DNA of 64,000 bases from a virus. Positions 8,654 to 63,963 of the stretch are shown piece after piece. Below the pieces are notes generated by a model that was not told where the DNA came from, ran no database searches, and worked only from the letters and a program-made list of their open reading frames with translations. The translations under genes were made by a program, and so were the position numbers. Every line of letters begins with the position of its first letter. Positions within the stretch are counted from its first letter, which is position 1. Location: IMG/VR virus record IMGVR_UViG_3300031787_010495, positions 41,600-105,599 of that record. One strand, given 5' to 3'.

Positions 8654-9484
8654 TTATTGCACTTCCTTCTTAGTTCCTCCAGCAGTAGAATATGTTTTAA
8701 CTAAATTATCTGGTTTATCTTTAAAGGCTTTTCTCATTACTTCTACATTTCTTGGGTCATCGTCTGAAAAACCAATTGATGGTTTAGATGGTGTAAATTT
8801 GTTTCCTATGTCGTTTTTTAACCATGCTCTTTTATTAAGTAATGCTGCCATATTCTTAATGTAGTCCACAAAATCATTCATCGCTCTAACCTTCGCCTCC
8901 TCGGGATTTGTGGCACCCGACTCATCTCCAAAAGAAACGGGATGGTATTTGTTTAAATCCAAATAAAGGTCGATAAGTTCTTTATCAGATAAATCTTCTT
9001 CACCTGTAAAGTTCCTATATTTTTTTAAATTTTTGATTAGTTCATCTTTGGATATCCCGCCGAAATCATTTACAATATAATTGTAGACGGATTGTTTCAG
9101 GGTTTCGGGATTATGACCCCTTGCAGTGATTATTGCAAATATTGAACCATTATTTATTGCTTCTCTAAAGTCATCAAAAGCTGGTCCCTTCTTTGCTTGC
9201 ATAGAATCAATCAAAAAGTCTTTGTCTCCTTCAGTTCGAAAGTTTCTAAACGGATTGTCACCGAACCCAACAATCTTATGTCCGTTATATTCAAAATCTT
9301 CTTTTCCTACAATGTGTCGGTATTCTGCAAAATCTTCGGTTGACATACCTACCTCTTCTCCGTCTGAATCTTTCAGAATTATCTTTGTCGGCATGTGCAC
9401 AATATTGTCATCCCAGTCGAAAGCGTAATATTTTAAATCCGGGGTTTTCTCGTCTTTGAAACCTTCTGTAATCTCTTTTCTCAT
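8654..9484 (-). CDS. HAD-superfamily phosphatase-like protein
   Basis: The product has 276 residues. HAD motifs are visible: motif I at about residues 20-27 (YAFDWDDNIV, with the D-x-D pair), motif II as FAIITARGH near residue 118, and a C-terminal acidic motif in IGFSDDDPRNVE. Such proteins are usually phosphohydrolases. Its place between the sheath and tube genes is odd for a metabolic enzyme and suggests a virion-related or late role. A hairpin terminator precedes its ATG by few bases. The substrate is unknown. Confidence 0.55.
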   Translation of the reverse strand: MRKEITEGFKDEKTPDLKYYAFDWDDNIVHMPTKIILKDSDGEEVGMSTEDFAEYRHIVGKEDFEYNGHKIVGFGDNPFRNFRTEGDKDFLIDSMQAKKGPAFDDFREAINNGSIFAIITARGHNPETLKQSVYNYIVNDFGGISKDELIKNLKKYRNFTGEEDLSDKELIDLYLDLNKYHPVSFGDESGATNPEEAKVRAMNDFVDYIKNMAALLNKRAWLKNDIGNKFTPSKPSIGFSDDDPRNVEVMRKAFKDKPDNLVKTYSTAGGTKKEVQ

Positions 9485-14072: not shown

Positions 14073-14765
14073 TTAATTATTTTTAGTCATTGAACCCACA
14101 GTTTTAAGTGCATTCCAATGAGAGTCTGACTTGGATGAACTCGCCCCAATCACAATCCCTTGTCCTCTCCCGACTGAGTTTCCAACAAAAACATTTGAAG
14201 CAGGAACTCCGTTGTTCACAGCATTTCTTACATTATTTTTCGTTTCACTTCCAGCAGCATATGGCTCAATGATGAACAAGTTATTTTTATTTTGACCCAA
14301 GACATTTGAAATCTCATTAGATTTCCTGCATCCCGCACTGAAAAGATAAATCGGGATTCCTGGGTTTTTATTGATAAAATCTATAATTGTAGAGGATGGT
14401 GTGTTAAACCTAAAACCTTTAACATTCTTTTCAGTTCCAATCCCCTGTTTCAATAAACTTACTTGTGAATCTATATTTAAGTCACCAGACCTATTATCTA
14501 ACCCCCCAACTAAAATTGCATCATACTCACCAGATGTTTTTTGTGATGAGGAACCTTTTCTCACAATTTTCAAACCAAACTCTTGTTCCATCGCACCTCT
14601 TGTCAAAGGTCCTAACTTACCATCCACTCCATCTTTGTTTGGACCATACTTACCCAAATCATACCCCTTTTTTATCAGATACTTTTGTATGATTTCAACA
14701 TTTGGGTCATAGGATATTTGTTCTAATAAAAAACCCAATTGTGATTCTTTTAAAATAAATCTCAT
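14073..14765 (-). CDS. Peptidoglycan-binding-domain protein with head-targeting-like N-terminus
   Basis: The product has 230 residues. Residues 1-16 (MRFILKESQLGFLLEQ) resemble the short N-terminal peptides of three other proteins here and contain an L-L-E site. Residues about 20-65 form a PG_binding_1-like domain: VEIIQKYLIKKGYD, GPNKDGVDGKLGPLT, RGAMEQEFGL. The rest (EYDAILVGGLDN, IPIYLFSAGCRKS, VFVGNSVGRGQGIVIG) looks like an alpha/beta fold of unknown function and ends with SHWNALKTVG. It could be a virion-borne cell-wall protein. Catalytic residues cannot be assigned. Confidence 0.5.
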   Translation of the reverse strand: MRFILKESQLGFLLEQISYDPNVEIIQKYLIKKGYDLGKYGPNKDGVDGKLGPLTRGAMEQEFGLKIVRKGSSSQKTSGEYDAILVGGLDNRSGDLNIDSQVSLLKQGIGTEKNVKGFRFNTPSSTIIDFINKNPGIPIYLFSAGCRKSNEISNVLGQNKNNLFIIEPYAAGSETKNNVRNAVNNGVPASNVFVGNSVGRGQGIVIGASSSKSDSHWNALKTVGSMTKNN

Positions 14766-40141: not shown

Positions 40142-40142
40142 C

Positions 40143-43908: not shown

Positions 43909-43912
43909 AGTG

Positions 43913-45365: not shown

Positions 45366-45970
45366 ACAACTCAAACCTTTCATGTAAATTAGAAATTTTA
45401 AAAGAGATATCGAAAAAATATTCTCTAATTGGTGATGTTTTGGAGTTTGGAACTTGCACTTGTCAAAGTGCAATCCAACTTGCCACAATGTTTCCTGACA
45501 AAACAGTATTCACAATTGACCATTTTCAAGGACTTGGAAAAAGTTCCAAACCATTACCATCCTCAAGTGATTGGAGGGAAGGTTCTTTTGCGTTGGGTGC
45601 ATGGAACGCAAAAGGTTGCGAGTTTCCAAAAACAATAGATGAGGCCCTGCAAAAACTATCAAGTAAGCCAAATATAAAACCAATTATCTCAGATATTCAC
45701 AAATTAACACATCCATCAGATTACGGAATCGGAAAAATTTCTATATGTAATGTTGATGTAGACATATATGAACCAACGGTATCATCACTCGAATTTTTGT
45801 TAAAATGTGAATGGTCAGAGGTTTTCATAAGATTTGATGATTGGCATGGTGGGAATTCTGAATATGACCATCACGAAAGGCAGGCCTTCAACGAATGGAT
45901 AAATAAACATAATCTCCAATTTGAATTAACCCATAATGGGACTTATGGTGGAGCATATATTAAAAGATAA
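45362..45970 (+). CDS. TylF/MycF-like methyltransferase, copy 2
   Basis: The 202-residue product is a tandem paralogue of the preceding gene: GDVLEFGTCTCQSAIQLA, KTVFTIDHFQGLGK, ICNVDVDIYEPTVSSLEF and IRFDDWHGGNSEYDHHER all align. The SAM loop differs (TCTCQSA against TFTGGST), so the copies may differ in substrate. They overlap by 4 bases. Confidence 0.65.
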   Translation: MNNSNLSCKLEILKEISKKYSLIGDVLEFGTCTCQSAIQLATMFPDKTVFTIDHFQGLGKSSKPLPSSSDWREGSFALGAWNAKGCEFPKTIDEALQKLSSKPNIKPIISDIHKLTHPSDYGIGKISICNVDVDIYEPTVSSLEFLLKCEWSEVFIRFDDWHGGNSEYDHHERQAFNEWINKHNLQFELTHNGTYGGAYIKR

Positions 45971-45973
45971 AAA

Positions 45974-46807
45974 ATGGAAAAAAAATTAATCAGGAAAGTA
46001 TCAGATTGGTGGGGTGAATATGATTGTTCATCAAACCGCAACATGCCAAAGTATATACAATGGCTATCTAGAGAAACTGAAACACCACACGAAGTTAGTG
46101 TATATGTTGATAACTACATTAAAGATTGGGGATTCAATGACCCATCAAGAGAAAAAATTGGATGGTTACTCGAATCACCACAGATGAATGAGCACACAAT
46201 CAAATATCTCTTAGATAATATTGACAAAACAAGGGAACATTATAAGTGGATATTCACTTGTATGGATAGTCTTGTCGAAATGGGTGCACCATTTGTTTAC
46301 AATATATCAAATGCGGTTCCTTGGATTTGGGAAAGAAATAGAATGATACACCCAAAAACTAAACTTGTATCCATGATTGCATCCAATAAAGGATGGTTGA
46401 GGGGTCACCAAAACAGACTACAATGGGTTGAGAGATTGAAAGATAAAGTGGACCTATTCGGTTCAGGCAGACCCCACCAAATAAACGATAAAGAGGATGG
46501 ATTGAGAGATTATATGTTTTCAGTCTCAATTGAAAATGATAATTCTGACACATACTTCACAGAGAAACTTACAGATAATTTTGTTATGGGAACTGTCCCT
46601 GTATATTATGGTTCGAGGAAGGTCGTTGAGAAATACTTCGACCCAACAGGAGTAATATTCTTGGAGGATGACCCCGACTTGTCAAGTTTAACTGTAGAAA
46701 AATATCAGTCCATGATGCCCGCAATTGAAAGAAATTTCAAGAAAGCGTTGGAATTACCACTAGCAGAAGATTACATGTGGGAAAACTATCTTAAAAATTT
46801 ATTCTAA
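45974..46807 (+). CDS. Alpha-1,3-fucosyltransferase-like (GT10)
   Basis: The 277-residue product shows the GT10 core: KVDLFGSGRPHQINDK, LRDYMFSVSIENDNSD, TYFTEKLTDNFVMGTVPVYYG, where the conserved Lys and the FTEKL motif bind GDP-fucose. Such enzymes make Lewis-type alpha-1,3/1,4 links. Its TAA overlaps the ATG of the epimerase-like gene. Confidence 0.8.
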   Translation: MEKKLIRKVSDWWGEYDCSSNRNMPKYIQWLSRETETPHEVSVYVDNYIKDWGFNDPSREKIGWLLESPQMNEHTIKYLLDNIDKTREHYKWIFTCMDSLVEMGAPFVYNISNAVPWIWERNRMIHPKTKLVSMIASNKGWLRGHQNRLQWVERLKDKVDLFGSGRPHQINDKEDGLRDYMFSVSIENDNSDTYFTEKLTDNFVMGTVPVYYGSRKVVEKYFDPTGVIFLEDDPDLSSLTVEKYQSMMPAIERNFKKALELPLAEDYMWENYLKNLF

Positions 46808-47622
46808 TGAAATATCTTGTTTTAGGCTCCGAAGGACAAATCGGAATGGAATTATGTAAATTCCTCAGAAACAAAGGGGAAACAGTAATAGAATTTGATA
46901 ACGCTAAAATACCCAGTCAAGATTTAAGAATACCAAATATCATTGATGATTTGGTGATGGAATCTGATTTTGTGATGTTCTTGGCTTTTGATGTTGGTGG
47001 TTCAAGATATTTGAAAAAATATCAACACACATATGAATTTATTGAAAATAATACAAAGCTAACACTATACACTTTTGAAAGTTTGAAAAAACATAACAAA
47101 CCTTTTATATTTGCATCATCACAAATGGCAAATATGTCATATTCACCATATGGAGTTTGTAAAAGTTTAGGTGAGATTTTCTCAACTGCACTGAATGGAG
47201 TCACAGTCAAGTTTTGGAACGTGTATGGACCTGAACATGATTTGGAAAAATCACACGTTGTGACTGATTTCATATTAAAGGCTAAAAAAGGTCAAATTAC
47301 AATGATGACCGATGGAACAGAAGAAAGACAGTTTTTACATGCTGAGGATTGTTCAAATTGTTTGTATATTCTTTCACAAAAATATAATGAGATTGATAGG
47401 TCAAAAAACCTACACATAACAAATTTTGAATGGAATACAATTTTAGAAGTTGCAAATATTATTCGTGAGACAATTCCTTGTGAAGTCATTCCTTCAACCG
47501 AAAAAGATTCTGTTCAACTTAATAAAAAGAACGAACCCGACCCTTACATATTGAATTTTTGGAAACCTGAGATATCCTTGAAAGAGGGTATCAATAAAAT
47601 TATAAATGAAATGACAAATTAG
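46807..47622 (+). CDS. NAD-dependent epimerase/dehydratase (extended SDR)
   Basis: The 271-residue product starts with a nucleotide-binding loop YLVLGSEGQIGMELCKFL, has an active-site pair in YGVCKSLGE (Y-x3-K) and FWNVYGPEH, and ends with a short substrate-binding domain. It is a sugar-nucleotide modifying enzyme, perhaps a partner of the following epimerase. It is slightly shorter than usual (about 310). Confidence 0.7.
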   Translation: MKYLVLGSEGQIGMELCKFLRNKGETVIEFDNAKIPSQDLRIPNIIDDLVMESDFVMFLAFDVGGSRYLKKYQHTYEFIENNTKLTLYTFESLKKHNKPFIFASSQMANMSYSPYGVCKSLGEIFSTALNGVTVKFWNVYGPEHDLEKSHVVTDFILKAKKGQITMMTDGTEERQFLHAEDCSNCLYILSQKYNEIDRSKNLHITNFEWNTILEVANIIRETIPCEVIPSTEKDSVQLNKKNEPDPYILNFWKPEISLKEGINKIINEMTN

Positions 47623-47623
47623 T

Positions 47624-48724
47624 ATGAAACAAAAAAAAGTAGTTGTTTTAGGTGGTGGAGGATTCATAGGGGGGCATTTGGCTAAAAGATTAAAAGAAGA
47701 AGGATGTCACGTTAGAATATGTGATATAAAAAAACATGAATACTTTTTCCAAGATGAAATATGTGATGAATTTATTTTGGGTGATTTGACTGACCCAAAG
47801 GTTGTGGAATTGGTAATCGAAGAAGGTGTTGACGAAATTTATCAGTTAGCTGCAGATATGGGGGGTGCTTTGTATATTTTCACAGGAGAACACGATGCAG
47901 ATGTAATGTATAACTCAGCAATGATTAATCTCAATGTTGCAAGAGAATGTGTTAAGAAAAAAGTAGGAAAGGTTTTTTACTCTTCTTCTGCTTGTATGTA
48001 TCCCGAGCACAATCAATTAGACCCCAACAATCCAAATTGTGAAGAATCTTCAGCATATCCTGCAAATCCAGATTCGGAATACGGATGGGAAAAGTTATTC
48101 TCAGAGAGAGTATTCCTTTCATTTCATAGAAACTATGGACTCAATGTTAGAATAGCAAGATTTCATAATATTTTTGGACCTCAAGGAACTTGGAAAGGGG
48201 GTAGAGAAAAATCACCCGCAGCGATGTGTAGAAAAGCTGCAGAATCAAAAGACGGTGATGAGATAGAGGTTTGGGGAGAGGGTAATCAAACCCGTTCATT
48301 TCTTTATGTAGACGAATGTGTAGAAGCTGTGTTAAGATTAATGAAGTCTGACTTTACCGGACCTGTCAACATAGGAAGTGAAGAAATGGTTTCAATCAAC
48401 GAATTAGCAATTCTAGCAATCAATATTTCAGGTAAGAAATTAAAAGTCAAAAATATTGCAGGTCGAGAGTTTGAAAAAAAATACGGTTTCAAGTGTCCGT
48501 TGGGTGTTAAGGGAAGAAACTCAGACAACAAGTTATATAGAGAAAAAATTGGATGGGAAGTTAGTCAACCTTTAGAAGTTGGTATAAGAAAAACATATCA
48601 ATGGATTAAATCTCAGGTTGATGACTATGAGACACAAACCCCTTGGATATATGAAACACCTGACAATGGTAAAACAGTTTATAGAAGAGAAATAAACAAT
48701 CCAATTAGAAAAAAAATTAAATAA
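47624..48724 (+). CDS. GDP-mannose 3,5-epimerase-like
   Basis: The 366-residue product matches the plant-type GDP-mannose 3,5-epimerase pattern: VVLGGGGFIGGHLAKRL, QLAADMGGALYIF, SSSACMYPE with the catalytic Cys, YGWEKL, FHNIFGPQGTWKGGREK with the catalytic Lys, then CRKAAES, TRSFLYVDECVEAVLRL and VKGRNSDNKLY. The enzyme converts GDP-D-mannose to GDP-L-galactose and GDP-L-gulose. L-galactose differs from L-fucose only at C6, so the product could feed the GT10 and GT11 enzymes nearby. Confidence 0.8.
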   Translation: MKQKKVVVLGGGGFIGGHLAKRLKEEGCHVRICDIKKHEYFFQDEICDEFILGDLTDPKVVELVIEEGVDEIYQLAADMGGALYIFTGEHDADVMYNSAMINLNVARECVKKKVGKVFYSSSACMYPEHNQLDPNNPNCEESSAYPANPDSEYGWEKLFSERVFLSFHRNYGLNVRIARFHNIFGPQGTWKGGREKSPAAMCRKAAESKDGDEIEVWGEGNQTRSFLYVDECVEAVLRLMKSDFTGPVNIGSEEMVSINELAILAINISGKKLKVKNIAGREFEKKYGFKCPLGVKGRNSDNKLYREKIGWEVSQPLEVGIRKTYQWIKSQVDDYETQTPWIYETPDNGKTVYRREINNPIRKKIK

Positions 48725-48725
48725 A

Positions 48726-49112
48726 ATGATAAATGTCCCTGTTAGTGTCGGAGAGTTAATTGATAAACTTTCCATCCTTCAAGTAAAAAAGACAAAAGTA
48801 AAAAATACAGAAAAACTTGAATACATCAAAAAGGAATTCGAGTTACTTTACAACTTGTCTTCAGAATATTTGAACGATATGACAATTGAAAATTTATACC
48901 ACGATTTGGTAAACACAAACTCAAATCTGTGGGAAATTGAGGATAGACTCAGAGTTTTGGAACTTGAAAGTAAATTCGAGGGTGAGTTTATAGATTTGGC
49001 TAGAAAAGTGTATATCACAAACGACAGAAGATTCGAATTGAAAAACGAAATCAATTCAATCACTTCATCTGAAATAAGAGAAGTAAAAGAATATGTGAAC
49101 TACAAAAGATAA
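48726..49112 (+). CDS. DUF6165-like protein
   Basis: The 128-residue product starts INVPVSVGELIDKLSILQVK and contains LWEIEDRLRVLE and FIDLARKVYITNDRR, the pattern of a small helical family (DUF6165) found next to glycosyltransferase genes in bacteria. The role is unknown, but linkage to sugar genes is a recurrent feature. Confidence 0.6.
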   Translation: MINVPVSVGELIDKLSILQVKKTKVKNTEKLEYIKKEFELLYNLSSEYLNDMTIENLYHDLVNTNSNLWEIEDRLRVLELESKFEGEFIDLARKVYITNDRRFELKNEINSITSSEIREVKEYVNYKR

Positions 49113-49128
49113 AAATTAAATTTATACA

Positions 49129-49863
49129 ATGGCAAAAACGACGAGAAAGTTGAGTGGAACGACCGCTCAGAGAGATGAGGCACAAATAAAAACAAAGAAA
49201 GACTTAATTTGTTCGATAGTAAAAAAGAAAACCAAACAAAAATTTTTATCTGAAAATCAAAAAATATATTACGACACACTTTTAAATAATCAAATTACAA
49301 TCTGTTCAGGACCAGCAGGTGTTGGTAAAAGTTATGTTGCAATGAAATGTGCAATAGACTTACTTTCTGACCCTCTAACTCCTTTCGAAAAGATTATCAT
49401 CGTCAGACCGGCGGTGGAGGCAGAAGAAAAATTAGGTAGTTTACCTGGTGGCGTTGAAGAAAAGTTAGACCCATACATTTTTCCATCATACTATCTTTTG
49501 AATAAAATAATAGGTAAAGAGACGAGAGAAAAACTTAAGGAAGCTGAAGCTATTGAGGTCTTTGCATTAGCTTATATGAGAGGTATGAATATTGATAATT
49601 CAATACTCATTTTCGAAGAAGCTCAAAACTCAACTCCGAGTCAAATGAAATTATTATTGACAAGAATAGGATTCAATTCGAAATTTTTCATATCAGGGGA
49701 TTTGGAACAATTTGACAGACATAAAGATAAAACACAAACAGGTTTATGGGACGTGATTAGAAGATTCGATGACATTGAAGATGTTGGCATTTTCGAATTC
49801 AAACCTTATGATGTAGTTAGAAATCCATTGATTTCGAAAATATTAAAAAAATACGAACAATGA
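49129..49863 (+). CDS. phoH: PhoH-like ATPase
   Basis: The 244-residue product has a P-loop CSGPAGVGKSYVAMKCAI, followed by IIIVRPAVEAEEKLGSLPGG, the Walker B-type IDNSILIFEEAQNSTPSQ and LTRIGFNSKFFISGDLEQ, all typical of PhoH proteins, which are common in marine and freshwater phages. It is probably an RNA- or DNA-linked ATPase. It overlaps the next gene by 4 bases. Confidence 0.85.
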   Translation: MAKTTRKLSGTTAQRDEAQIKTKKDLICSIVKKKTKQKFLSENQKIYYDTLLNNQITICSGPAGVGKSYVAMKCAIDLLSDPLTPFEKIIIVRPAVEAEEKLGSLPGGVEEKLDPYIFPSYYLLNKIIGKETREKLKEAEAIEVFALAYMRGMNIDNSILIFEEAQNSTPSQMKLLLTRIGFNSKFFISGDLEQFDRHKDKTQTGLWDVIRRFDDIEDVGIFEFKPYDVVRNPLISKILKKYEQ

Positions 49864-50453
49864 GAATTGGAATCGAAATAAATGGAGTTTTAAGAGACAC
49901 CTTAAAAAAGATTCAAGAAGTTTATGAGAAGTGGTTTATAGAAAATCGTTTCGATGATGACGAAGAACCTAAAGGTGAAGTTTTTTCAGAATTGAATTCC
50001 TTAGAAATTATGAAACATCTTAAATTTAAAGATGAAGATGAATTATATAATTTCTTATACAAAGAGTATACTATGGAAATATTCGGTCATGCCGGTTCTA
50101 AGGAATATAACGGTATGAATGATTTTAATGATTTTTATTTGGACATGAGAGAAGAACATGATATTATTGTTGTTTCTGACGAAATAGGAAAATCGAAACC
50201 AGCTTCTTTATTTTTTCTATCCAAGTTCGGATGTCTTACAGAAAACGTCAAATTTTATAGTGAATCTACAATAAATTATCTTTGGGACAGCGTAGACGTT
50301 TTACTTACTGCAAATCCAAACCTATTATTAAATCATCCTTCTAATGTGGAAGTCATTAAATATGAAACGTCATACAATAAGGATATAAATACAAACCATT
50401 CAATTCAGTCGATAGGAGAATTGAAATCAAAATTGAACAAACTTTATGATTAG
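49860..50453 (+). CDS. HAD-like protein with degenerate active site
   Basis: The 197-residue product starts MRIGIEINGVLRDTL, in place of the DxDGVLRD of related 5'-nucleotidase/HAD proteins. Both Asp positions are changed (E and N). A second motif IIVVSDEIGKSKPA could correspond to motif II. The fold is probably kept but catalysis may be lost. It overlaps PhoH by 4 bases and the next gene by 8. Confidence 0.5.
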   Translation: MRIGIEINGVLRDTLKKIQEVYEKWFIENRFDDDEEPKGEVFSELNSLEIMKHLKFKDEDELYNFLYKEYTMEIFGHAGSKEYNGMNDFNDFYLDMREEHDIIVVSDEIGKSKPASLFFLSKFGCLTENVKFYSESTINYLWDSVDVLLTANPNLLLNHPSNVEVIKYETSYNKDINTNHSIQSIGELKSKLNKLYD

Positions 50454-50727
50454 TGTTTTAGGTGAAACTTATTATATCGATTTGGATAAAGTCGAAAATT
50501 ATTTAGACATGTCCAATGATGAAAACTACGAGCCACTTTCAGGAACATCTGAAATGAGAATAAATGTTATTAAATTTGAACTCATAAAATTATTATTAGA
50601 AACTGTTCTATCAGAACAGGAACCTCTCGAAGATAAGTTAGGTTTAAACAATCCGAAGAACGTTAGTATACCGTTCAAATTGGCATTTAATACCTTACTA
50701 AACAAAAAATTAATAAATCATTATTGA
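50446..50727 (+). CDS. Protein of unknown function
   Basis: The 93-residue acidic, helical product (YYIDLDKVENYLDMSND, VIKFELIKLLLETVLSEQE) overlaps the previous gene by 8 bases. No family recognised. Confidence 0.5.
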   Translation: MISVLGETYYIDLDKVENYLDMSNDENYEPLSGTSEMRINVIKFELIKLLLETVLSEQEPLEDKLGLNNPKNVSIPFKLAFNTLLNKKLINHY

Positions 50728-50728
50728 T

Positions 50729-51778
50729 ATGCAGGCACCAGTAAAAGAAAAATTAGAAATTTCAATCAAAAATTTGGAAGACAAAAAAGCCAGAATTTAT
50801 TTTTTGGTTCAAGATACCAAAAACAACGCTAAAGCTTCTGTTAGATTTATCTATCAAGTTGCAAAAACCCTTTTGGATAATGGATTCAATCCAATCATTT
50901 TACATGAAAAGAAAGATTACTTAGGTGTAAATTGGATGGGTGAGGAATACATGAAGATTCCTCATAAAACAATTGAAGGTGAGAATTTAGAAATTTCTCC
51001 CGAAGACTTTTTGGTAATCCCCGAGATATTTGGATACGTTATGGAGCAAGTTAAACAATTGCCATGTGCTAAAATTGTTATAACTCAACAATATGCTCAC
51101 ATGTTAGAAACTCTCAATCCAGGTCAATCGTGGTCACAGTTTGGATTTTACAAATGTATAACTACCAATTTCAAACAAAAAGAATATATCGAGAAGGTAA
51201 TGAGACAATCCTCAATTGATGTTTTGAAACCTTATATAAATGATAAGTTCCAACCAAAAAATTTACCACCAATGCCGATTATTGGTATTCACACCAAAGA
51301 ACAATCTGATGCGGTGAACATAATCAAAACTTTTTATCTCAGGTTTCCACAATATAGATGGTTTACCTTCCGAGACTTAAGAGGGTTGTCGGAAACAGAA
51401 TTTGCAAACTCTTTGAAAGAATGTTTTGTCAGCGTTTGGATTGACGATAAGAGTGGATTTGGAACATTTCCTTTAGAATCCATGAAATGTGGTGTTCCTT
51501 GTATTGGCAAAATTCCAGATTTGATGCCCGATTGGATGAACGAAGACAATGGGATATGGATTACAGACCAAACATTATTCCCTGATGTATTAGCAGATTT
51601 TGTTCAAAATTGGTTGGAGGATAACATCAAACCTGAACTTTACGAACAATTTCAAAAAACAGCAGAAACTTTCTCAAATAAACAAGAGTTTGAAGAGAAC
51701 GCAGTTGAACTATTTCAATCGTATCTAACCACAAGAGCAAACTCATTTAAAGAACAAATGTCAAAAACAGAAAACTAA
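50729..51778 (+). CDS. GT-B glycosyltransferase
   Basis: The 349-residue product has a GT4-like layout: an N-terminal domain with SVRFIYQVAKTLLDNGFNP, a second domain starting PMPIIGIHTKEQSDA and the donor-binding region SGFGTFPLESMKCGVPCIGK. The usual long N-terminal nucleotide loop is short. It belongs to the sugar gene run and is followed after one base by a GT2. Confidence 0.65.
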   Translation: MQAPVKEKLEISIKNLEDKKARIYFLVQDTKNNAKASVRFIYQVAKTLLDNGFNPIILHEKKDYLGVNWMGEEYMKIPHKTIEGENLEISPEDFLVIPEIFGYVMEQVKQLPCAKIVITQQYAHMLETLNPGQSWSQFGFYKCITTNFKQKEYIEKVMRQSSIDVLKPYINDKFQPKNLPPMPIIGIHTKEQSDAVNIIKTFYLRFPQYRWFTFRDLRGLSETEFANSLKECFVSVWIDDKSGFGTFPLESMKCGVPCIGKIPDLMPDWMNEDNGIWITDQTLFPDVLADFVQNWLEDNIKPELYEQFQKTAETFSNKQEFEENAVELFQSYLTTRANSFKEQMSKTEN

Positions 51779-51779
51779 T

Positions 51780-52586
51780 ATGGAAAACAAATTTTCAGTA
51801 TCTGTAATATTACCTATCAAATCTTCTAAAGCAAAAGACTTTGAAGAGTATTTTAATAAAGCAATCAATTCAATCAAAAATCAGTCTGTAGAGCTAGAGG
51901 AAATTCTAATCGTTCATTCAATTGAAGAATCACTTCAAGAATTTTTGAAAAGTTATAATTTCGAAAATCTGAATGTAAAATTATTAGAGTGGAGTCAAAA
52001 ACCTAATTACTGTTCTCAAGTCAACTTCGGAATTAAAAATGCGAAAGCAACTTGGATTTCTCTTTTTGAATTTGATGATGAATACTCAAATATTTGGTTC
52101 AAAAATGTAAAGAAATACGCTGAATCATATCCTGATGTTCAGATGTTCTTACCAGTAGTTGTCGAAGTGGACGAAAAAGGGACCTTCGCTGGTTTCACAA
52201 ATGAAGCAACGTTTGCGGCAAACTTTACACAAGAAATGGGATTCTTGACAAATGACACACTTCAAGATTATCAGAACTTCCAAACCGCAGGGTCAGTATT
52301 CAAAAAATCTTTGATTGATGATTTTGGTGGTTTCAAACCCTCAATCAAACTCACTTTTATTTATGAGTTCCTTTTGAGACTTACGTATAATTCAGTTTCT
52401 ATTATGACTATACCCAAACTTGGTTACAAACACGTTAACCTTAGAGAGGGTTCAATATTTTGGAATTACAAAAATGGTGATTCGAAAATGTTAGAAGATG
52501 AAGTTAAGTTTTGGCTACAGACAGCCAAGAAAGAATATTTCTTTACTGACGACAGAGTCATAAAATATGAATCACCAAATGCGTAA
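51780..52586 (+). CDS. Glycosyltransferase family 2
   Basis: The 268-residue product begins FSVSVILPIKSSKAKDFEE, has SIKNQSVELEEILIV, and the acidic motif ISLFEFDDEYS in place of DxD. The C-terminal half carries FVF-type beta segments. Its TAA shares one base with the ATG of the sigma-factor gene (TAATG). Confidence 0.65.
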   Translation: MENKFSVSVILPIKSSKAKDFEEYFNKAINSIKNQSVELEEILIVHSIEESLQEFLKSYNFENLNVKLLEWSQKPNYCSQVNFGIKNAKATWISLFEFDDEYSNIWFKNVKKYAESYPDVQMFLPVVVEVDEKGTFAGFTNEATFAANFTQEMGFLTNDTLQDYQNFQTAGSVFKKSLIDDFGGFKPSIKLTFIYEFLLRLTYNSVSIMTIPKLGYKHVNLREGSIFWNYKNGDSKMLEDEVKFWLQTAKKEYFFTDDRVIKYESPNA

Positions 52587-57587: not shown

Positions 57588-59096
57588 ATGTCAATTTTAA
57601 GGTCATATTTCAGTAAAAATAACACAATTATTTCCAATTCATACGTGAACACAGGACGTAACCCTGTTGTTCAATTGAATTTTGGTGCGTCGGATTACAT
57701 AGTTCCAAACTATGGATATACACGTTTCATTTTTGATTTAGACCTACAACAACTAAGAGATTCGATTGCAAACGGAACAATTTCGACAGGATGCACATCG
57801 GCGATGACACATACACTTAAGATGACAAACACGTCTTCTTTTGACAACGAGTTACTCAACACCTTTATGTCCGACTCAAGGAGAAGGGCGACCTCATTCG
57901 ATTTAATATTATTCAGAATCCCCAAAACCTCAGGCTCAACAGGTAACCCTCAAGAATGGGATGAAGGGGTTGGATACGATTATAACAATTTTAATTTAGC
58001 ACAGAACAGTGCACAAGGTGGTCAATCCCCTTTGACATACGTTGACCCAAGAGCCTTTTCTACAAGACCATCCAATTGGTATCAGACTACCACAATTGAT
58101 GATTGGTCACAAGCAGGAATTTACAATAACAAGAATGAGGGCAGTGTTAATTATACGGGTCTTACAGTCGTTTCTAGACAACATTTCGAGTTGGGTAATG
58201 AAGACCTCAACATGGACATGACAAACGAAATTAACGGTGTTTTAAACGGTTCTATAACGGGTGTAACAGGTTGGGGTTTAGCATATCTTCCTCAGATTGA
58301 AAATATAACAGGTTTGACCGATAGTTACAGTGTTGCATTCTTCTCGAGACATACCCAAACTTTCTACCAACCATACCTTTTGACCAATTACGACGATTTG
58401 ATTCAGGATGATAGAAACCAATTTCTGAAGAACCAAGAGAATAGATTATATCTCTACATTTATCAGAATGGTGATTTGGTTAATCTTGATAGTGACCCGT
58501 TTGTGAGAATAGAAGATAGAGTTGGTGTTGCTGTAACTGGTATGGAGGCATTGACAACTTGTTTAAGAACTAAAGGGGTTTATGAAGTAATTGTTCCGAA
58601 TGGTTTTACAGGTGCTACCCCATGTCAATACTACGATGTTTGGTCAGGATTAACAATTAATGGTCAATCACTTCCAAACGTATCGAATACCTTCACTCTT
58701 CAACAATATTCTGCAGGAATACAAATCGGAACTCTATCCAAAGAACCTCAAAAGTTTGGTTTCAATTTTTACGGGATTCTACAGAACGAACAAATTTTGA
58801 ATACAGACATTAGAAAGGTTGGTGTCACAATTAAAAAAGCATACACCGGTCAACAAATGTTATTAGATGTATCAGCATTTTACAGGGTTTATGTCAAAGA
58901 AGGAACAACAGAAGTATTAGTTCAAGATTGGACACCAATAAACAGAACGCCAAATGAGTATTATTTCATTTTCGATATGAGAGATAAAATTCCTAATCAA
59001 TATTATGTTGACATTCAAGTTAACACTTCAGGTGAGAAAGATACTTATAAAAGACAATTAACGTTTAACATAGTAAATCAGAAACAAAATGGCTAA
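57588..59096 (+). CDS. Virion structural protein (baseplate wedge or appendage)
   Basis: The 502-residue beta-rich product has segments such as GYTRFIFDLDLQQLRDSI, MTHTLKMTNTSSFDNELLN, RATSFDLILFRIPK, EWDEGVGYDYNNF and YQPYLLTNYDDLIQDDRNQF. I have the impression that this protein is conserved among large tailed phages of Bacteroidota. The late promoter and neighbouring gp5-like gene suggest a baseplate or fibre-attachment role. It overlaps the next gene by 8 bases. Confidence 0.55.
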   Translation: MSILRSYFSKNNTIISNSYVNTGRNPVVQLNFGASDYIVPNYGYTRFIFDLDLQQLRDSIANGTISTGCTSAMTHTLKMTNTSSFDNELLNTFMSDSRRRATSFDLILFRIPKTSGSTGNPQEWDEGVGYDYNNFNLAQNSAQGGQSPLTYVDPRAFSTRPSNWYQTTTIDDWSQAGIYNNKNEGSVNYTGLTVVSRQHFELGNEDLNMDMTNEINGVLNGSITGVTGWGLAYLPQIENITGLTDSYSVAFFSRHTQTFYQPYLLTNYDDLIQDDRNQFLKNQENRLYLYIYQNGDLVNLDSDPFVRIEDRVGVAVTGMEALTTCLRTKGVYEVIVPNGFTGATPCQYYDVWSGLTINGQSLPNVSNTFTLQQYSAGIQIGTLSKEPQKFGFNFYGILQNEQILNTDIRKVGVTIKKAYTGQQMLLDVSAFYRVYVKEGTTEVLVQDWTPINRTPNEYYFIFDMRDKIPNQYYVDIQVNTSGEKDTYKRQLTFNIVNQKQNG

Positions 59097-59559
59097 AGTT
59101 GTAAAATTAACCGAATCAGATATAACCAAGTTGGTTAACAAAGTTCTCAATGAATCATACCAAGAGCATGAAAATTACATGTTTTTTTCTAACCTCAAAC
59201 AGATTATGAGACAATGTAAAATGTTGTTGGAGTTTGACCCACAGATGATAGATGAAATTTTACAAAACGGTCACGACTGGGCCGATGACCACGTTACTGA
59301 GGCTAAAACCAACATGGACCAAGTTTTTGATTTTTTCATGAATGAAAAATCTAAAATGGGAGATTATTTAGATTTCGAAGATTTGAGTGAAGGTAGAAAA
59401 AAAACAGGAACTAAACTTTGTGCAAGAGGTAAGGCAGCGGCTAAGAGTAAATTCAAAGTTTACCCATCAGCTTATGCAAATGGATATGCCGTTCAGGTTT
59501 GTAAAGGAAAAATGCCAGGTTTAGATGGAAAAAAACAATGTTCAGGTGCATATTGTTAA
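59089..59559 (+). CDS. Putative internal head protein with targeting peptide
   Basis: Residues 1-22 of 156 form a short helix VVKLTESDITKLVNKVLNE ending in L-N-E, followed by Ser; the same type of peptide starts two other proteins in this region. The C-terminal 55 residues (RKKTGTKLCARGKAAAKSKF, VYPSAYANGYAVQVCKGK, CSGAYC) are basic with paired Cys, similar to a small module I know from phage and algal-virus proteins, perhaps nucleic-acid binding. The protein may be packed in the capsid with the DNA after cleavage behind residue 22. Confidence 0.55.
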   Translation: MAKVVKLTESDITKLVNKVLNESYQEHENYMFFSNLKQIMRQCKMLLEFDPQMIDEILQNGHDWADDHVTEAKTNMDQVFDFFMNEKSKMGDYLDFEDLSEGRKKTGTKLCARGKAAAKSKFKVYPSAYANGYAVQVCKGKMPGLDGKKQCSGAYC

Positions 59560-59574
59560 TTTGATTATTATTTT

Positions 59575-59582
59575 TATCTTTG
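59575..59582 (+). promoter_or_regulatory. Bacteroidota-type -7 element TATCTTTG
   Basis: TATCTTTG matches TAnnTTTG exactly; TTGT lies 18 bases upstream as a weak -33 element. The ATG of the next gene follows after 4 bases, so the transcript would be nearly leaderless. Confidence 0.4.
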
Positions 59583-59586
59583 ATTA

Positions 59587-59997
59587 ATGGATAACAAAGT
59601 TGTTGGTTTCATCCCGAATATATTATATAAGGTTTTTTTAGCACTCAAGGAAAAGTTCGACCCCAAAAAACCGTTGCCGGCTGACGAAAGAATCACCTAC
59701 GAAATATGTAGAAAGGTCCTTGACGACTCAGATTCAAAATTAACTTTAGCCCCATTATCTAATAAAAGATTTATAAAAAACGAGTCCAAGGATATGTTTA
59801 TTGTTTTACATGACCATAGTGTAAAACTAATAAATCATATATACAGTTATTCCGTGTATATCTCAGACACAAGTCTTTACGTAGAGTTAGTCGAAAAATT
59901 TGACAAGAAATTGGATGATGAAAGAATGAAACTTGAGATTGAAATCAATAATAATATCAATCATTCTTTAGAGGAAATTTTAAAAAAACTTGATTAG
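59587..59997 (+). CDS. Protein of unknown function
   Basis: The 136-residue product starts VVGFIPNILYKVFLALKEKF and continues with charged helices (KKLDDERMKLEIEINNNINH). It appears to have a host-type promoter rather than the late motif, so it may be expressed early. Its stop codon interlocks with that of the opposing gene (TTAG). No family recognised. Confidence 0.5.
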   Translation: MDNKVVGFIPNILYKVFLALKEKFDPKKPLPADERITYEICRKVLDDSDSKLTLAPLSNKRFIKNESKDMFIVLHDHSVKLINHIYSYSVYISDTSLYVELVEKFDKKLDDERMKLEIEINNNINHSLEEILKKLD

Positions 59998-60887
59998 TAT
60001 CTCCCACTAAAATATACGTATAATACCTCAGGTATTCTGAAACAACTTTTCTTTTCACCTTTATTGTTTACACAATCTATTGGTTTTAGATTTTTTACAA
60101 GTTTTCTCAGTTCATATGGGGCTTTACTTGTCATTAGGTAAACCTGTTCAACAGGATATAACAAATTGGGACTATATTCTTCTTTTAAAACCCTCTTAAT
60201 TAATCCCCTCAAAGATTCATTTTTTGGTTTATATGAAGTCATTGTTGGTTTGTTACCTGTTCCCATTTTAGGGTCTTTTTTCTCAGCTTTCCTTTTTTGA
60301 GCACATGCATTCTTTTTTTGAGAGTCACTCATTTTTGAAGCAACACCTGCCGCTCTACATTTTGGATATCCCTTACTATCTGCCTCGGGTCTTCCACACG
60401 GAGGATGTCCCCCACCTTCTTTTTTTCTACATATATTTACCCAAGGTCCTTTGGGTTGTTTACTACCTTTTGGTTTCTTTTTTGTCCCAAACCATACCGC
60501 TAAATCCTCTTTTAAAACTGGTTCATATTCAGTTTTTGGTATATGTGCAATTCTTTTTACTTCTTTGGGTGTTCCAAGGGCATCACTTCCCATGGGTGAA
60601 TACCCATTTATTGGATTTCCGTCATCATCGCTTTGTGAAAACATTTCTTTTGCTTTTTTAGCTCTTTTTATTGCCTTCGTTTCGTTTTTTCTTATTAACG
60701 TTTGGTCCCTTTCCATTTCACCATCATAACTATCGTAAGCATTCACCGCACTAACAAAGTTCGATACTGGTTTCGTGAAAGGTTCCAAGGGCTCTTTTTC
60801 CCATATTTGGGGTGCAAGAACTAATGGTATTTTCATTCTACCTGAACTACCTGAACCAGTGGCTTCATTAATGAATCTTTTTTTCAT
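59994..60887 (-). CDS. Putative internal head protein with Cys-rich DUF5872-like module
   Basis: I chose the ATG at 60887, which puts the late promoter motif 12 bases upstream and avoids overlap with the divergent gene; the frame extends 14 codons further. The 297-residue product begins MKKRFINEATGSG, with I-N-E before Ala just like the predicted capsid protein cleavage site. Residues about 148-205 carry GPWVNICRKKEGGGHPPCGR and YPKCRAAG, a Cys-rich basic module of DUF5872 type. At about residue 225 a second targeting-like helix occurs (NESLRGLIKRVLKEEYS). The protein may be cleaved twice during head maturation. Confidence 0.55.
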   Translation of the reverse strand: MKKRFINEATGSGSSGRMKIPLVLAPQIWEKEPLEPFTKPVSNFVSAVNAYDSYDGEMERDQTLIRKNETKAIKRAKKAKEMFSQSDDDGNPINGYSPMGSDALGTPKEVKRIAHIPKTEYEPVLKEDLAVWFGTKKKPKGSKQPKGPWVNICRKKEGGGHPPCGRPEADSKGYPKCRAAGVASKMSDSQKKNACAQKRKAEKKDPKMGTGNKPTMTSYKPKNESLRGLIKRVLKEEYSPNLLYPVEQVYLMTSKAPYELRKLVKNLKPIDCVNNKGEKKSCFRIPEVLYVYFSGRY

Positions 60888-60899
60888 ATATTTCTTAAT

Positions 60900-60907
60900 A
60901 TAAATAT
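60900..60907 (-). promoter_or_regulatory. Candidate late promoter ATATTTAT
   Basis: Reads ATATTTATATT, 12 bases before the ATG at 60887, in a divergent gap. Confidence 0.4.
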
Positions 60908-60915
60908 CCTGTAAA

Positions 60916-61113
60916 ATGTTTGATAACAAGAATCAATTAATTTCTCGAATTATAGAAATTGAATATCACATTACCTCAGAAATCTCTAAAGGACATAAAC
61001 CTTTTTTTGGTGACTATTTAGAACCTCTCAGACAAGAAGTTGACACATTGAGATGTATTGTATTCGGTTACAATAGTCCATATTGTAAAAAAAAATTGGT
61101 GGATAAAAAATAA
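60916..61113 (+). CDS. Small protein of unknown function
   Basis: The 65-residue product (QLISRIIEIEYHITSEISK, LEPLRQEVDTLRCIVFGY) is helical and basic at the end. It starts 29 bases from the divergent head-protein gene. No family recognised. Confidence 0.45.
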   Translation: MFDNKNQLISRIIEIEYHITSEISKGHKPFFGDYLEPLRQEVDTLRCIVFGYNSPYCKKKLVDKK

Positions 61114-61118
61114 TCGAT

Positions 61119-61126
61119 TAATTTTG
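61119..61126 (+). promoter_or_regulatory. Bacteroidota-type -7 element TAATTTTG
   Basis: TAATTTTG fits TAnnTTTG, with TTGG 19 bases upstream as a -33-like element. The ATG follows after 6 bases. Together with a host-like signal peptide this suggests a gene acquired from the host with its own promoter. Confidence 0.45.
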
Positions 61127-61132
61127 TGTGAT

Positions 61133-61522
61133 ATGAAAAAATATTATTTATTTATCTTGTTTGTTATATCTGTTTTTTCCACTTTCGGACAAAACCTCGG
61201 ATTTAAAAATCCGAAAGATTGTTATCAATTTTTATCACAATCAGAAAAAATCTTACTAAATGAATGTTTGGATTCTCTAAATGTTAAACTTGATTCAATC
61301 AAAGGAGTTGATGAAATTTATGATTCACCAATTTTATTGAACTGTAATATAAAAGCTGTAGTTAAAAGTGATTACCTTTTCAAGGATTCTAGAACACAAA
61401 CTTATACAAACTATTTAATTGAAACACTATTTCGTAATGCAACACTGATGGAACCAAAATACATGGTTTTTGTTAATAGGGATACTAATGGTTCAAAAAT
61501 AACGGTGCAACAATATTATTAA
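61133..61522 (+). CDS. Small secreted protein
   Basis: The ATG at 61133 begins a clear signal peptide: MKKYYLFILFVISVFSTFG, with probable cleavage after FG before QN, typical of Flavobacteriia; the frame extends upstream but the signal peptide decides the start. The mature part of about 110 residues (NPKDCYQFLSQSEKILLNE, LDSLNVKLDSIKGVDEIY) has two Cys that could pair. It would be exported to the periplasm. Function unknown; superinfection exclusion or lysis control would be options. Confidence 0.55.
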   Translation: MKKYYLFILFVISVFSTFGQNLGFKNPKDCYQFLSQSEKILLNECLDSLNVKLDSIKGVDEIYDSPILLNCNIKAVVKSDYLFKDSRTQTYTNYLIETLFRNATLMEPKYMVFVNRDTNGSKITVQQYY

Positions 61523-62085
61523 ACTTCGTAGGGTTTTGCTTCTTCCACGTCTTTAACTTCTAAAGAACGACCCTTGTTTTGTTTTACAATGAAATAATCA
61601 TTTGGGGTGTAGGATTCTCCAGTCTTAAGTTTCTTTCTATTTTTTTTGTATTTGTCTAAAATATCAAAATCATACACAGGACCCAAAGATAATTTTCCGA
61701 TAGCAGGTAAACCATTTTCTTTTGTATAGACAACCCAATTACCCTGACTCCTTTCGAAGTTAGTTTTAATCAAAGAGGCAATCATATTCGCGGTTTCGGT
61801 TGTCTCATTATTTTCGAATGTGGAACCATTCCACCTTAGCGATAACTCAGAAAGTTTCGGTAAACTAAATTCAGTTTTCTCAATGATGTTACTTTTAGGT
61901 CTTTTCGCAAAAACATCATAGGTATCTCCATTTTTAACCAAATATATTTCCTCCGCCTTGGTAGGTTCCGTTAAGGATGTGTTTCTTGAAAAAATAAAAT
62001 CATAGTTTTGCTGTTGTTCATTAATTACTCTATTAACAATTTCCACAAATTCCGATTCCGTTAATCTTATTATTTTCTTGGTCAT
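61519..62085 (-). CDS. Putative internal head protein with targeting peptide
   Basis: From the ATG at 62085 (the frame starts 5 codons earlier) the 188-residue product begins KKIIRLTESEFVEIVNRV followed by INEQQQ, a near-copy of the peptide at the start of the 59089 gene. The remainder (EEIYLVKNGDTYDVFAKRP, GPVYDFDILDKYKKNRKKL) is a charged alpha/beta protein without known family. It lies directly behind the capsid gene, separated by a terminator and a new late promoter. Its stop interlocks with that of the opposing gene (TTAA). Confidence 0.55.
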   Translation of the reverse strand: MTKKIIRLTESEFVEIVNRVINEQQQNYDFIFSRNTSLTEPTKAEEIYLVKNGDTYDVFAKRPKSNIIEKTEFSLPKLSELSLRWNGSTFENNETTETANMIASLIKTNFERSQGNWVVYTKENGLPAIGKLSLGPVYDFDILDKYKKNRKKLKTGESYTPNDYFIVKQNKGRSLEVKDVEEAKPYEV

Positions 62086-62089
62086 ATAA

Positions 62090-62097
62090 ATAAATAT
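62090..62097 (-). promoter_or_regulatory. Candidate late promoter ATATTTAT
   Basis: Reads GATATTTATTTATATG with the ATG 4 bases behind the first motif copy; a second overlapping TATTTAT is present. It follows directly after the capsid gene terminator. Confidence 0.5.
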
Positions 62098-62100
62098 CAT

Positions 62101-62132
62101 AATAAAAAAAAAGGGTCCCGAAGGACCCTTTT
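62101..62132 (-). terminator. Terminator after the major capsid gene
   Basis: The 10-base stem AAAAGGGTCC / GGACCCTTTT has a TTCG tetraloop on the minus strand and is followed by a T-run. It is the best-formed rho-independent terminator of the window, fitting a very highly expressed gene. Confidence 0.85.
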
Positions 62133-62151
62133 ATATTTTGGTTAGACCATA

Positions 62152-63963
62152 TTATCTCAACTCTTTCAAATCGAATGTTCTAACACCATCAACTGTGATT
62201 CTACCGTAGAATCTGTTGTTCACCATTTTCTTAGCGTATCTAGTCATGATACCTTTGATTGGTGTGAAGTTGAATGGGTTATACATTGTTGGAGTAAGTT
62301 GTAAAGGTACATATGGTGCGTAAATGTAACCTGTATCAAGAAGCGAAGTTCCTTTGTGACCGATTAACACTTGGTTTGGTGGGAAGTAAGGGTCTCTATA
62401 AACTTGGTATCTACCAGCTAGAGTTCCTACTCTTTCAATACCCATGTTGTATTGGTCTTGCTCAGGAGCTGCGTTTGAAACGTGGAAATATTCTAAATCA
62501 TCAAAAATCGCAGAGATTTCAGAAGATACAACAATCCAGTTAGCACCGCCTCTTAAAGTTGATTTGTGAATTTGAGCTGACAATTGATTGATTGCAGTAA
62601 TCAACGTTTGGTTCCAGTCTTTCTGAGTGTAAGAAACTGCGCCAGTTCCACCACCGAGTCTCTTCCAACCGTTGTAATCCCATCTCAAGTTCCATGCTGC
62701 ACCTTTTCTAAGGTCTCTCAAGATTTCTCTATCGATTTCAGCCGCAACCTGCTCAGACAATAAAGCTGTCAATTCAGCTTCAGCGTCAATGTTGTGGAAT
62801 GCTGCAACGTCTTGTGCCATTTCAGGTGACCATTGTGCTCTTAACTTTCTTTCTGTAACAGAAACAGTTACTGACATAAGGTCAAATGAAACCTCACCAA
62901 TTTTATCTTCAAATTCTAAGTTCTTATACAATCTGTAAGTAGCTGAGAACGCTGAGTTTGCAGCTGTTGTTGAAGAGAATGTAGAACCTGTGTAACCGTC
63001 CATAGAACCTGTACATGTAATACATACTGGAACTTGAAGGTCGATTTCAAGATAGATATCACCATTTACATCACAGATGTTGTCATACTGACCACCATCA
63101 GTTAATGAACCTGGGAAATCTAAAGTAGCGTTGTTGTTACCGTATTGAACGATACCTTTACCATATCTTTGAGTTACTACTCTGAAAAGGTAAGGACCAC
63201 CACCCGCTGTTGTTGGGTTAGCAGATACACCGTAGATAGTCAAATCAGACAAGAATGATTCTGTGTCGATTGGGTTACCATCAGGACCGATTAATTTACC
63301 TGCTCCGTCAGATGCAAAACCTGACATGATAACTAATACTTTTCTATAGTTATCTGTTGCGTATGCCGCTGGTTCAAGATTCAAAGTTGTGTTGTTCCAC
63401 TGAGCTGTTACAACTGAAGTTATTGCAGATGTTACAGAAGTGAAAGAACCCTTAGAATAATCGAATAAACCTGGTGGGTCTAACGCTGGTTCATTACCCT
63501 CATAAAATCTATCATAAAGGTCTCTACCATTGTTATAGTTGTATCCTGCATTTGGAGATGTTGGACCATCTGGTGCACCGTATGGTGAATAGTGTTGATT
63601 AAGACCTGCAGGTGCTGCTGGGTCATAGCTCTGAATGTTTGGTACAAAGTAGAACAATTTACCGATTGGTAAGTTCATTGCTTGTACTGAAACGATATCG
63701 TTAGCCAACAACTTAGAGAACACTCTTCTCACGATTGGAAATACAACAGTTTCAAATGCACCTGTATCAGATGTAGATGAAGCTTCGTTGATTAAGTGAG
63801 AAGCTTGGTTTTCATAAAGTTGAGCTACGTTTTCTCTCATGTGACCTTTAAGACCCTCTAAGAATCCTAATTTGTCCCATTTGTTGATTGTGTCTTCTTT
63901 GATAACTTTAAGGTGCTTAAGACCGATGTTACCAACAAGACCTGATTCTAATAATGCTCCCAT
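62152..63963 (-). CDS. 23: Major capsid protein (gp23-like)
   Basis: The 603-residue product (521 in T4) has an N-terminal helical delta-like region ending in QASHLINEASSTSDTG; cleavage after E60 would correspond to the FLTE/A site of T4 gp23. The HK97-type body follows, with VVFPIVRRVFSKLLANDIVS, VQAMNLPIGKLFYFVP, and near the end LIGHKGTSLLDTGYIYAPY and NPFNFTPIKGIMTRYAKKM. It forms the hexamers of the head. A strong terminator follows; no RTATTTAT motif is seen in the 37 bases visible upstream, so its promoter is probably beyond the window or shared with a gene upstream. Confidence 0.9.
   Translation of the reverse strand: MGALLESGLVGNIGLKHLKVIKEDTINKWDKLGFLEGLKGHMRENVAQLYENQASHLINEASSTSDTGAFETVVFPIVRRVFSKLLANDIVSVQAMNLPIGKLFYFVPNIQSYDPAAPAGLNQHYSPYGAPDGPTSPNAGYNYNNGRDLYDRFYEGNEPALDPPGLFDYSKGSFTSVTSAITSVVTAQWNNTTLNLEPAAYATDNYRKVLVIMSGFASDGAGKLIGPDGNPIDTESFLSDLTIYGVSANPTTAGGGPYLFRVVTQRYGKGIVQYGNNNATLDFPGSLTDGGQYDNICDVNGDIYLEIDLQVPVCITCTGSMDGYTGSTFSSTTAANSAFSATYRLYKNLEFEDKIGEVSFDLMSVTVSVTERKLRAQWSPEMAQDVAAFHNIDAEAELTALLSEQVAAEIDREILRDLRKGAAWNLRWDYNGWKRLGGGTGAVSYTQKDWNQTLITAINQLSAQIHKSTLRGGANWIVVSSEISAIFDDLEYFHVSNAAPEQDQYNMGIERVGTLAGRYQVYRDPYFPPNQVLIGHKGTSLLDTGYIYAPYVPLQLTPTMYNPFNFTPIKGIMTRYAKKMVNNRFYGRITVDGVRTFDLKELR

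Follow-up and report, generated by a model that had tools for sequence, protein, structure and literature searches.

Interchangeable short leaders ending in Ile/Leu-x-Glu on many unrelated proteins of a giant T4-like virus suggest a large head-loading system

The DNA analyzed here (the window) covers 64,000 nucleotides, positions 41600-105599 of the 105,599-bp virus record G000 (IMG/VR IMGVR_UViG_3300031787_010495). It contains a gene for a T4-type capsid protein and several genes whose products begin with short N-terminal peptides, or leaders, that close in [IL]xE (Ile or Leu, any residue, Glu). The virus is a giant, uncultured T4-like bacterial virus. An IMG/VR contig of 321,283 bp (G018) is identical to the window record across 105,183 bp, and from this identity we took it to be the same virus with its remaining two thirds. 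The head module of G018 has a T4-like order: portal, gp21-type protease, scaffold, gp23-type capsid protein and then leader genes. The protease, whose gene lies outside the window record because that record stops before gp21, matches Peptidase_S77 (1e-21), and the portal and scaffold were assigned by eye and gene position. The capsid protein (62152-63963, minus strand) matches Pfam Gp23 PF07068 at 4.2e-71 and begins with a predicted 60-residue propeptide ending HLINE (63784..63963, minus strand). In the phages collection, an unannotated record of 484 kb and the phages Mel-JY01 (Microcystis), immuto (Flavobacterium) and RM378 (Rhodothermus) are among its best matches, each at <60% identity. Another record, G033 (L108; 181,846 bp), has a portal 100% identical to that of G018 and is a second record of this virus or of a very near one.

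Two genes close to the capsid gene carry the leader that we call class A, or the LTES-type tag. The 156-residue protein at 59089-59559 (plus strand) starts with 22 residues, MAKVVKLTESDITKLVNKVLNE, followed by S (59089..59154). The 188-residue protein at 61519-62085 (minus strand), encoded by the first gene after the capsid gene, starts with 23 residues, MTKKIIRLTESEFVEIVNRVINE, followed by Q (62017..62085); a hidden Markov model (HMM) of the tag recovers this leader in its own record at E 2.6e-14, the leader itself being among the 55 rows of the HMM. An initial annotation of this DNA had reported related helices at these two starts and at 14765, and a fourth leader at 60887. All four N-termini are present in the sequence, and the phenomenon is larger than first stated. 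The likeness holds for the first two starts, whereas 14765 belongs to a second class of the form MK-hhh-xESQ. Among relatives of the 59089 protein that share its YMFFSNL body, the leader varies while the hxE before the body is kept in the alignment (L110, L079 and L113 lack LTES). The body of the 59089 protein (59155..59559, plus strand) has a C-terminal Cys module that matches phrog_27331 (PHROGs, 5.9e-16; function unassigned there) and is also present in Pelagibacter and Prochlorococcus phages. In one of them, Pelagibacter phage HTVC023P (L460), a different kind of phage, adjacent small genes at 4088-4740 match the Cys modules of the 59089 and 60887 proteins.

The initial annotation had suggested a search for LTES-type starts in related phages. 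At the DNA level, LTES[DE]hxxhhxx[VI]hxE written as a degenerate pattern (pattern 1) matched at least 120 stretches of viral_contigs, on many unrelated bodies. Among the matches listed, a strict regular expression finds the tag in 105 of 120 loci (15 lack it), a Met lies within 12 residues upstream in 129 of 134 tag open reading frames (ORFs; window included), and the 129 tagged bodies form 95 clusters at E 1e-3. The five ORFs without a nearby Met comprise a contig-end truncation (L008), one with no upstream Met (L036), a C-terminal tag (L048), an internal tag (L058) and a probable chance match (L083). Because pattern 1 itself fixed the final Glu, we also ran pattern 2, which encodes only MKK[IV][IV][KR]LTES[DE]L and leaves the closing Glu free. 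It again matched at least 120 stretches. Among the matches listed in loci to L230, 142 proteins of >45 residues form 99 body clusters, and the closing Glu is kept in all 99, as Glu22 in 91 (88 with I or L at P3) and as Glu26 of a longer variant in 8. In an earlier subset (loci to L190; 98 proteins, 76 clusters), the corresponding figures were 69 and 7, and over these 76 clusters Glu22 carries 3.27 bits of information, the next residue 1.16 bits and the one after it 0.32 bits. Judged by this boundary, the LTES start is a transferable tag on many unrelated bodies, as the initial annotation had proposed.

A tag of this kind could also be a docking helix that brings proteins to the virion, or to a different phage compartment, and remains attached uncleaved. 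The regular spacing of its hydrophobic residues and its occurrence at a C-terminus (L048) would suit such a role, but conservation ends at the Glu, and unrelated leaders, described below, have mainly the [IL]xE end in common, which matches the capsid and scaffold sites. We therefore consider docking without cleavage unlikely. The codons at conserved tag positions vary (six for Leu, four for Thr, six for Ser, two for Glu and two for Asp), and therefore the conservation is at the protein level. A nucleotide element at the start codon, acting as a translation or RNA signal with the peptide only apparent, would account for the position near the start codon that is fixed in most cases, but the many synonymous codons and the presence of the peptide at a C-terminus leave this explanation almost no credibility.

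Outside the viral contigs, pattern 1 gave 75 matches in a genome collection of 84,980 bacterial and archaeal species. By eye, five of these are N-terminal tags (L398, L428, L433, L436 and L457) and three more are tag-like (L408 and L412, from one Prochlorococcus record, and L431); the remainder lie inside other proteins or in short frames. The class A tag HMM also matches records G038-G043, which had first been chosen as negative controls and hence are no controls. Searching the phages collection with the tag alone by tblastn gave nothing useful (two records at E 9; none), such short queries being underpowered. Class A strings were absent from the open-licence PMC text searched, where we found no paper pointing to these leaders.

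The leader at 14765 represents class B. It consists of MRFILKESQLGFLLE, followed by Q (14721..14765, minus strand), fits the class B consensus and precedes a PG_binding_1-like body (protein 14073-14765; 20.4 bits, below the Pfam cut-off of 23). Two G018 proteins with a PG_binding-related domain carry other starts. A pattern of the 14765 type, in which the final Glu is fixed, retrieved 123 proteins of >45 residues in 38 body clusters. Leaders were also recovered by clustering 9,577 N-terminal windows taken from a pool of 10,984 ORFs, with only those pairs kept whose tails did not match; the pool is biased to loci fetched via the tag patterns, and ORFs of <90 residues were never merged, which inflates the body counts. 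The first four places were taken by leader families: A (LTESDL; 187 bodies), B (TESQ; 113), D (starts MNLxENIxRIKExMG and MKxLIRKILKE; 62) and F (ISEEEKxRI; 54). Three further families, E (SKIRHIQEANxRLExRLLxE; 12), G (LxESxxGDVKPLIxE; 10) and H (MKYLxGYKxGRVISEQ; 5), rank below several ordinary families. Lower clusters such as VNHPQHYGG and MGFNKR look like ordinary families and were not counted, and the helix-turn-helix (HTH)-type starts (MKKYIPSEEEINIILKMYN) inside the F community are probably not leaders.

By this clustering there are seven leader families, which mostly end in [ILM]-x-E. When only ORFs of at least 110 residues are counted, A, B, D and F retain 149, 95, 57 and 49 bodies, and an [ILM]xE ending at residue 10-28 occurs in 140, 72, 55 and 38 of these, as well as in 11/11 for E, 10/10 for G and 5/5 for H, against backgrounds of 9-33%; the D and E consensus holds an earlier I-x-E that inflates this test. 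At the closing site aligned by eye, [IL]xE is present in 25 of 28 rows for D and [ILM]xE in 20 of 28 for F, with 11/12 for E and 10/10 for G. G018 alone has 34 distinct ORFs in six of the leader communities (A, B, D, E, F and G), many of them clustered in the genome, and 29 of the 34 have [ILM]xE ending at residue 10-28. One Glucosaminidase protein of G018 (201735) has a D-type start and no clear [IL]xE. Other carriers were seen by homology or regular expression alone, among them the 60887 protein, a DHH-like protein with MKNLITE and the protein at 8654-9484 (minus strand), whose minimal leader MRKEITE (9464..9484) is replaced by a class B leader before the same body in a relative (L348). The latter protein has a DWDD motif and is HAD-like by eye, with no Pfam match. 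The start at 37162 of the window (MNLTNTLKGLLTE, next residue I) was considered as a further leader and set aside, as it has no homologue but itself in the pool.

The same bodies are found behind different leaders. The 377 proteins tagged by regular expression that have bodies of at least 60 residues form 204 body clusters, nine of which contain leaders of both classes, A and B. We also collected 122 proteins, in 32 families, that are homologous to tagged bodies and match none of the class A, B and C expressions; this set includes variant A or B leaders missed by the expressions, so that true swaps are mixed with drifted tags. An [IL]xE lies within four residues of the junction in 100 of the 122, where random positions in these proteins give 11%, and in 25 of the 32 families at least half of the members have it. 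Exact placement at the junction occurs in 53 of 98 (background 1.5%). The clearest case of swapping is a DHH-like family, so labeled from a Pfam DHH match below cut-off, in which class A, class B and minimal leaders (MKKLITE, MKRIIKE, MRKIISE, MKRVITE, MSKLITE and others) stand directly before a conserved [STG]-G-[IL]-R. The G018 member at 255156-257312 (L243:15159-17312) has MKNLITE as its minimal leader. In its C-terminal part there is a match to a TseH-like Pfam family (5.6e-8), and the relative L350 has a SET match there instead.

The protein at 59994-60887 (minus strand) has 297 residues and matches nothing in Pfam at E 1. We read it as a polyprotein whose modules are linked by [IL]xE sites, with three junctions in all. 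It begins with the short leader MKKRFINE, followed by A (60864..60887). In an alignment of 15 sequences picked from the longer homology matches, this first junction has P1 Glu and P3 Ile or Leu in 15/15, and the leader is elsewhere poorly alignable. The second junction, VLKE|DLAVWFG (P1 Glu at residue 127, 60507..60509), has E|D in all 15, with Leu at P3 in 12, Val in two and Thr in one; the DLAVWFG module also occurs with its own short leader in L191, L105 and L255 (truncated in L255, where the locus ends). At the third, GLIKRVLKE|EYSPNLLYP (P1 Glu at residue 236, 60180..60182), the evidence comes from standalone homologues with leaders, since the YSPNLLYP module follows a class A leader in L091 and L116 and a class B leader in L283, L354, L360 and others. 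The initial annotation had correctly read MKKRFINE and the internal VLKE. The near-end copy, we now find, has its counterpart in a C-terminal tag of homologues: 10 of 14 aligned relatives end soon after a tag-like helix that closes in [IL]xE, and in L048 this helix is a full class A tag with QIG behind it. Among the other four relatives the helix lacks the Glu in three and is absent in one. The window copy has an extra module after its near-end VLKE helix.

The same closing motif occurs in the head proteins themselves. At capsid residue 60, L[IL]NE|[AS] is present in 24 of 24 aligned rows (23 LINE, one LLNE; the rows include the virus of the window twice, as L147 and L149), which bears out the HLINE/A site noted initially. 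In the scaffold, LVKESL followed within 60 residues by [IL]xE|Q was found in 13 of 20 sequences, compared with 0.3 expected from shuffles; a scaffold could not be assigned at one of the 21 loci. The scaffold stretch EEISQLVKESLSE, whose next residue is Q, resembles the class A tag, and the tag may thus imitate a scaffold helix. In T4, gp21 cuts after L/I-x-E, as the initial annotation had stated and as PMC9026906 describes. S77 was found in 23 of 44 records of one set and in 17 of 30 of another (16 above the curated cut-off). The initial annotation had named homologues in phages lacking a gp21-type protease as the telling counter-case, and among the leader-bearing records of both sets all 13 tag-bearing ones of at least 280 kb have S77, as do 6 of 11 records of 200-280 kb. 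In G056 there are two S77 matches at separate places, and in G053 the match lies within a 606-residue open frame. To see whether records lacking S77 come from other phages, we compared 21 records, two of which (G013 and G017) are known positives. Portal matches occur in three (G013, G017 and G033) and DNA polymerase matches in seven (G013, G017, G006 in part, G023, G027, G036 and G041). The last four have no S77 yet carry the polymerase of the same lineage (56-73% identity), and all but G027 are probably cut before the head module.

A Pfam search with 150 bodies (of the 204 cluster representatives) gave 17 families at E 0.001, all but one with a single member, including sigma-70 regions, LysM, phage lysozyme, SET, DHH, annexin, UPF0227 and OmpA. 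Of 19 G018 leader proteins scanned, 12 had no match at E 0.01, two had matches below the curated cut-off only and five had matches above it (Peptidase C39, YkuD L,D-transpeptidase, Glucosaminidase, PG_binding and the TseH-like domain). Neither Pfam nor PHROGs named a function for three of the four bodies in the initial annotation. In L277 a class B leader precedes a sigma-factor-like protein (seven cluster members), and a sigma factor of this type is possible head cargo. The peptidoglycan-related matches (Glucosaminidase, YkuD and PG_binding) would also suit leaders removed by a host protease or another phage protease, which would route the proteins elsewhere, such as to the envelope or to secretion. 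By eye the leaders are unlike Sec signals, which other N-terminal groups in the pool (FSFSQ type) do resemble, and their closing motif is that of the head proteins, so we give such routing even less weight than the mosaic gene ends considered next.

Recombination at short shared starts or promoters might spread N-termini that have no targeting function. Starts and promoters could indeed travel together, as ATATTTAT is enriched upstream of tagged genes (182 of 360, compared with 446 of 2028 controls), and the clustering of many G018 leader genes would fit such exchange. It would not predict internal and C-terminal tags, nor the convergence of unrelated leaders on a single closing motif, and we find mosaic gene ends very improbable as the explanation. 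The motif TATTTAT lies within 45 nucleotides upstream of 16 of 21 G018 leader genes, against 99 of 321 called genes. It also precedes the genes for protease, scaffold, portal, sheath and tube, and is missing before those for capsid, terminase and DNA polymerase, a distribution that fits late expression of the leader genes without proving it.

Taken together, we think it likely that the leaders are capsid-targeting sequences (CTSs) of a large head-loading and prohead-processing system like that of T4. The head cargo system suggested initially is thus supported by the transferability of the tag, the capsid and scaffold sites and the S77 gene. As the prohead forms, the short helix at the N-terminus, or now and then a copy placed internally or at the C-terminus, would bind the scaffold core and bring its protein into the prohead. 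The activated gp21-type S77 protease would then cut after [I/L]-x-E, so that the label comes off and the protein lies free in the head beside the DNA, to be ejected from the head into the host. This role would be shared by several unrelated leader families and by minimal leaders of 7-8 residues, even on the same bodies, and fused bodies would be parted at internal [IL]xE sites. A more elaborate version is conceivable, though we hold it only tentatively and would sooner bet against it: a modular code in which leader families are distinct addresses for different core readers, the class A tag copies the scaffold LVKESLxE|Q helix, and each virion holds about 30-40 proteins, both enzymes and effectors (DHH-like nucleases, sigma factors, peptidoglycan enzymes, peptidases), singly or as polyproteins cut by the maturation protease.

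Several observations weigh against head loading and processing of this kind. The expected site is missing in 22 of the 122 leader-swap homologues, in 7 of 20 scaffolds, in 23 of 95 B and 11 of 49 F bodies (no [ILM]xE at residues 10-28) and, by the same measure, in 5 of the 34 G018 leader genes. The residue after the class A tag is mostly Q, whereas A or S follows the capsid site. No S77 match was found in 21 of the 44 and 13 of the 30 records searched, often the shorter ones. G027 (274 kb), which lacks gp21 and gp23, is not clearly a fragment, and the polymerase-to-capsid spacing in G013, G017 and G018 would place the head module inside it. At E 0.1 the class A tag HMM finds nothing in the cultured relatives Mel-JY01, immuto and RM378 or in the uncultured LR756511, and LR756508 has two weak matches only. 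AlphaFold models of the 59089 and 60887 proteins were too poor for use (pLDDT 52 and 53).

Other genes of the window and of related genomes are recorded here for completeness. Two large proteins rich in PT repeats (PTPTxTPTxTPT) at 28621-30639 and 31605-35534 are perhaps fibres or adhesins, and a repeat protein resembling them lies near head genes at L236:17168-18178. Within the structural region, 38232-52586 is taken up by an extended series of genes that by eye resemble those for glycosyltransferases, methyltransferases and NAD epimerases. Adjoining structural genes, the protein at 17772-19310 (plus strand) has an N-terminal part that by eye is like iron/manganese superoxide dismutase, fused to a further domain. 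In several genomes the capsid gene is directly followed by related ORFs that are HTH-type by eye (L248:7317-8051, L256:5467-6279, L258:5524-6288, L259:5196-5984 and L266:5452-6504, in coordinates of the capsid-gene strand); a homologue of the 60887 protein sits there elsewhere. These ORFs are possibly mobile genes.

The closest known system is that of T4. According to PMC9026906, T4 internal proteins are targeted to the core by propeptides of 10-19 residues, ten residues of IPIII suffice for targeting, and foreign proteins are loaded by fusion. Related T-even phages have at least 10 such internal proteins, with Ip1-3 alike in the leader only (PMC12373910). The leaders described here share with the T4 CTSs of IPI-III a short N-terminal propeptide common to unrelated proteins of one phage (34 ORFs in G018), an L/I-x-E end (the class A Glu in 99 of 99 clusters, and mostly in the other classes) and a gp21/gp22/gp23 setting, as G018 has the S77 protease, Gp23 and scaffold- and portal-like genes in T4-like order. 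Judged by these descriptions, the system appears to work like T4 targeting. It differs in having seven leader families instead of one, 34 leader-type genes in one genome, >200 body clusters in the pool, a class A leader of about 22 residues, internal and C-terminal copies, polyprotein cargo and enzyme families among the bodies. The giant phages SPN3US and phiKZ likewise have a large head proteome whose N-terminal propeptides are removed by cleavage behind a short Glu-ending motif; in SPN3US, according to PMC10052503, the motif is A-x-E, the propeptides mostly span 111-254 residues and ~80% of head proteins are uncut, whereas the present leaders are short, common to several proteins and end mostly in [IL]xE. 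There is also a likeness to the polyvalent proteins of phages and conjugative elements, described in PMC5512222 as multidomain, predicted to be packaged and injected, and in some cases processed. Their processing is ascribed there to built-in peptidase domains; the modules found here are joined by prohead-protease-type sites and also occur alone with their own leaders. The 60887 protein, for which Pfam gave no match, does not show the several effector domains, often with a peptidase, that mark polyvalent proteins.

The proteins injected by giant phages are mostly obscure because most have no recognizable family. Should the leaders mark head cargo, what uncultured phages carry in their heads could be read from sequence, and the >200 body clusters would be candidates for injected proteins of host takeover or counter-defense. 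As new short tags, the leaders could also serve to load proteins into phage heads. Capsid targeting as known from T4 would then be widened from a few small coliphage proteins to a system that is broadly spread in the environment, uses several interchangeable labels and takes polyproteins as cargo.

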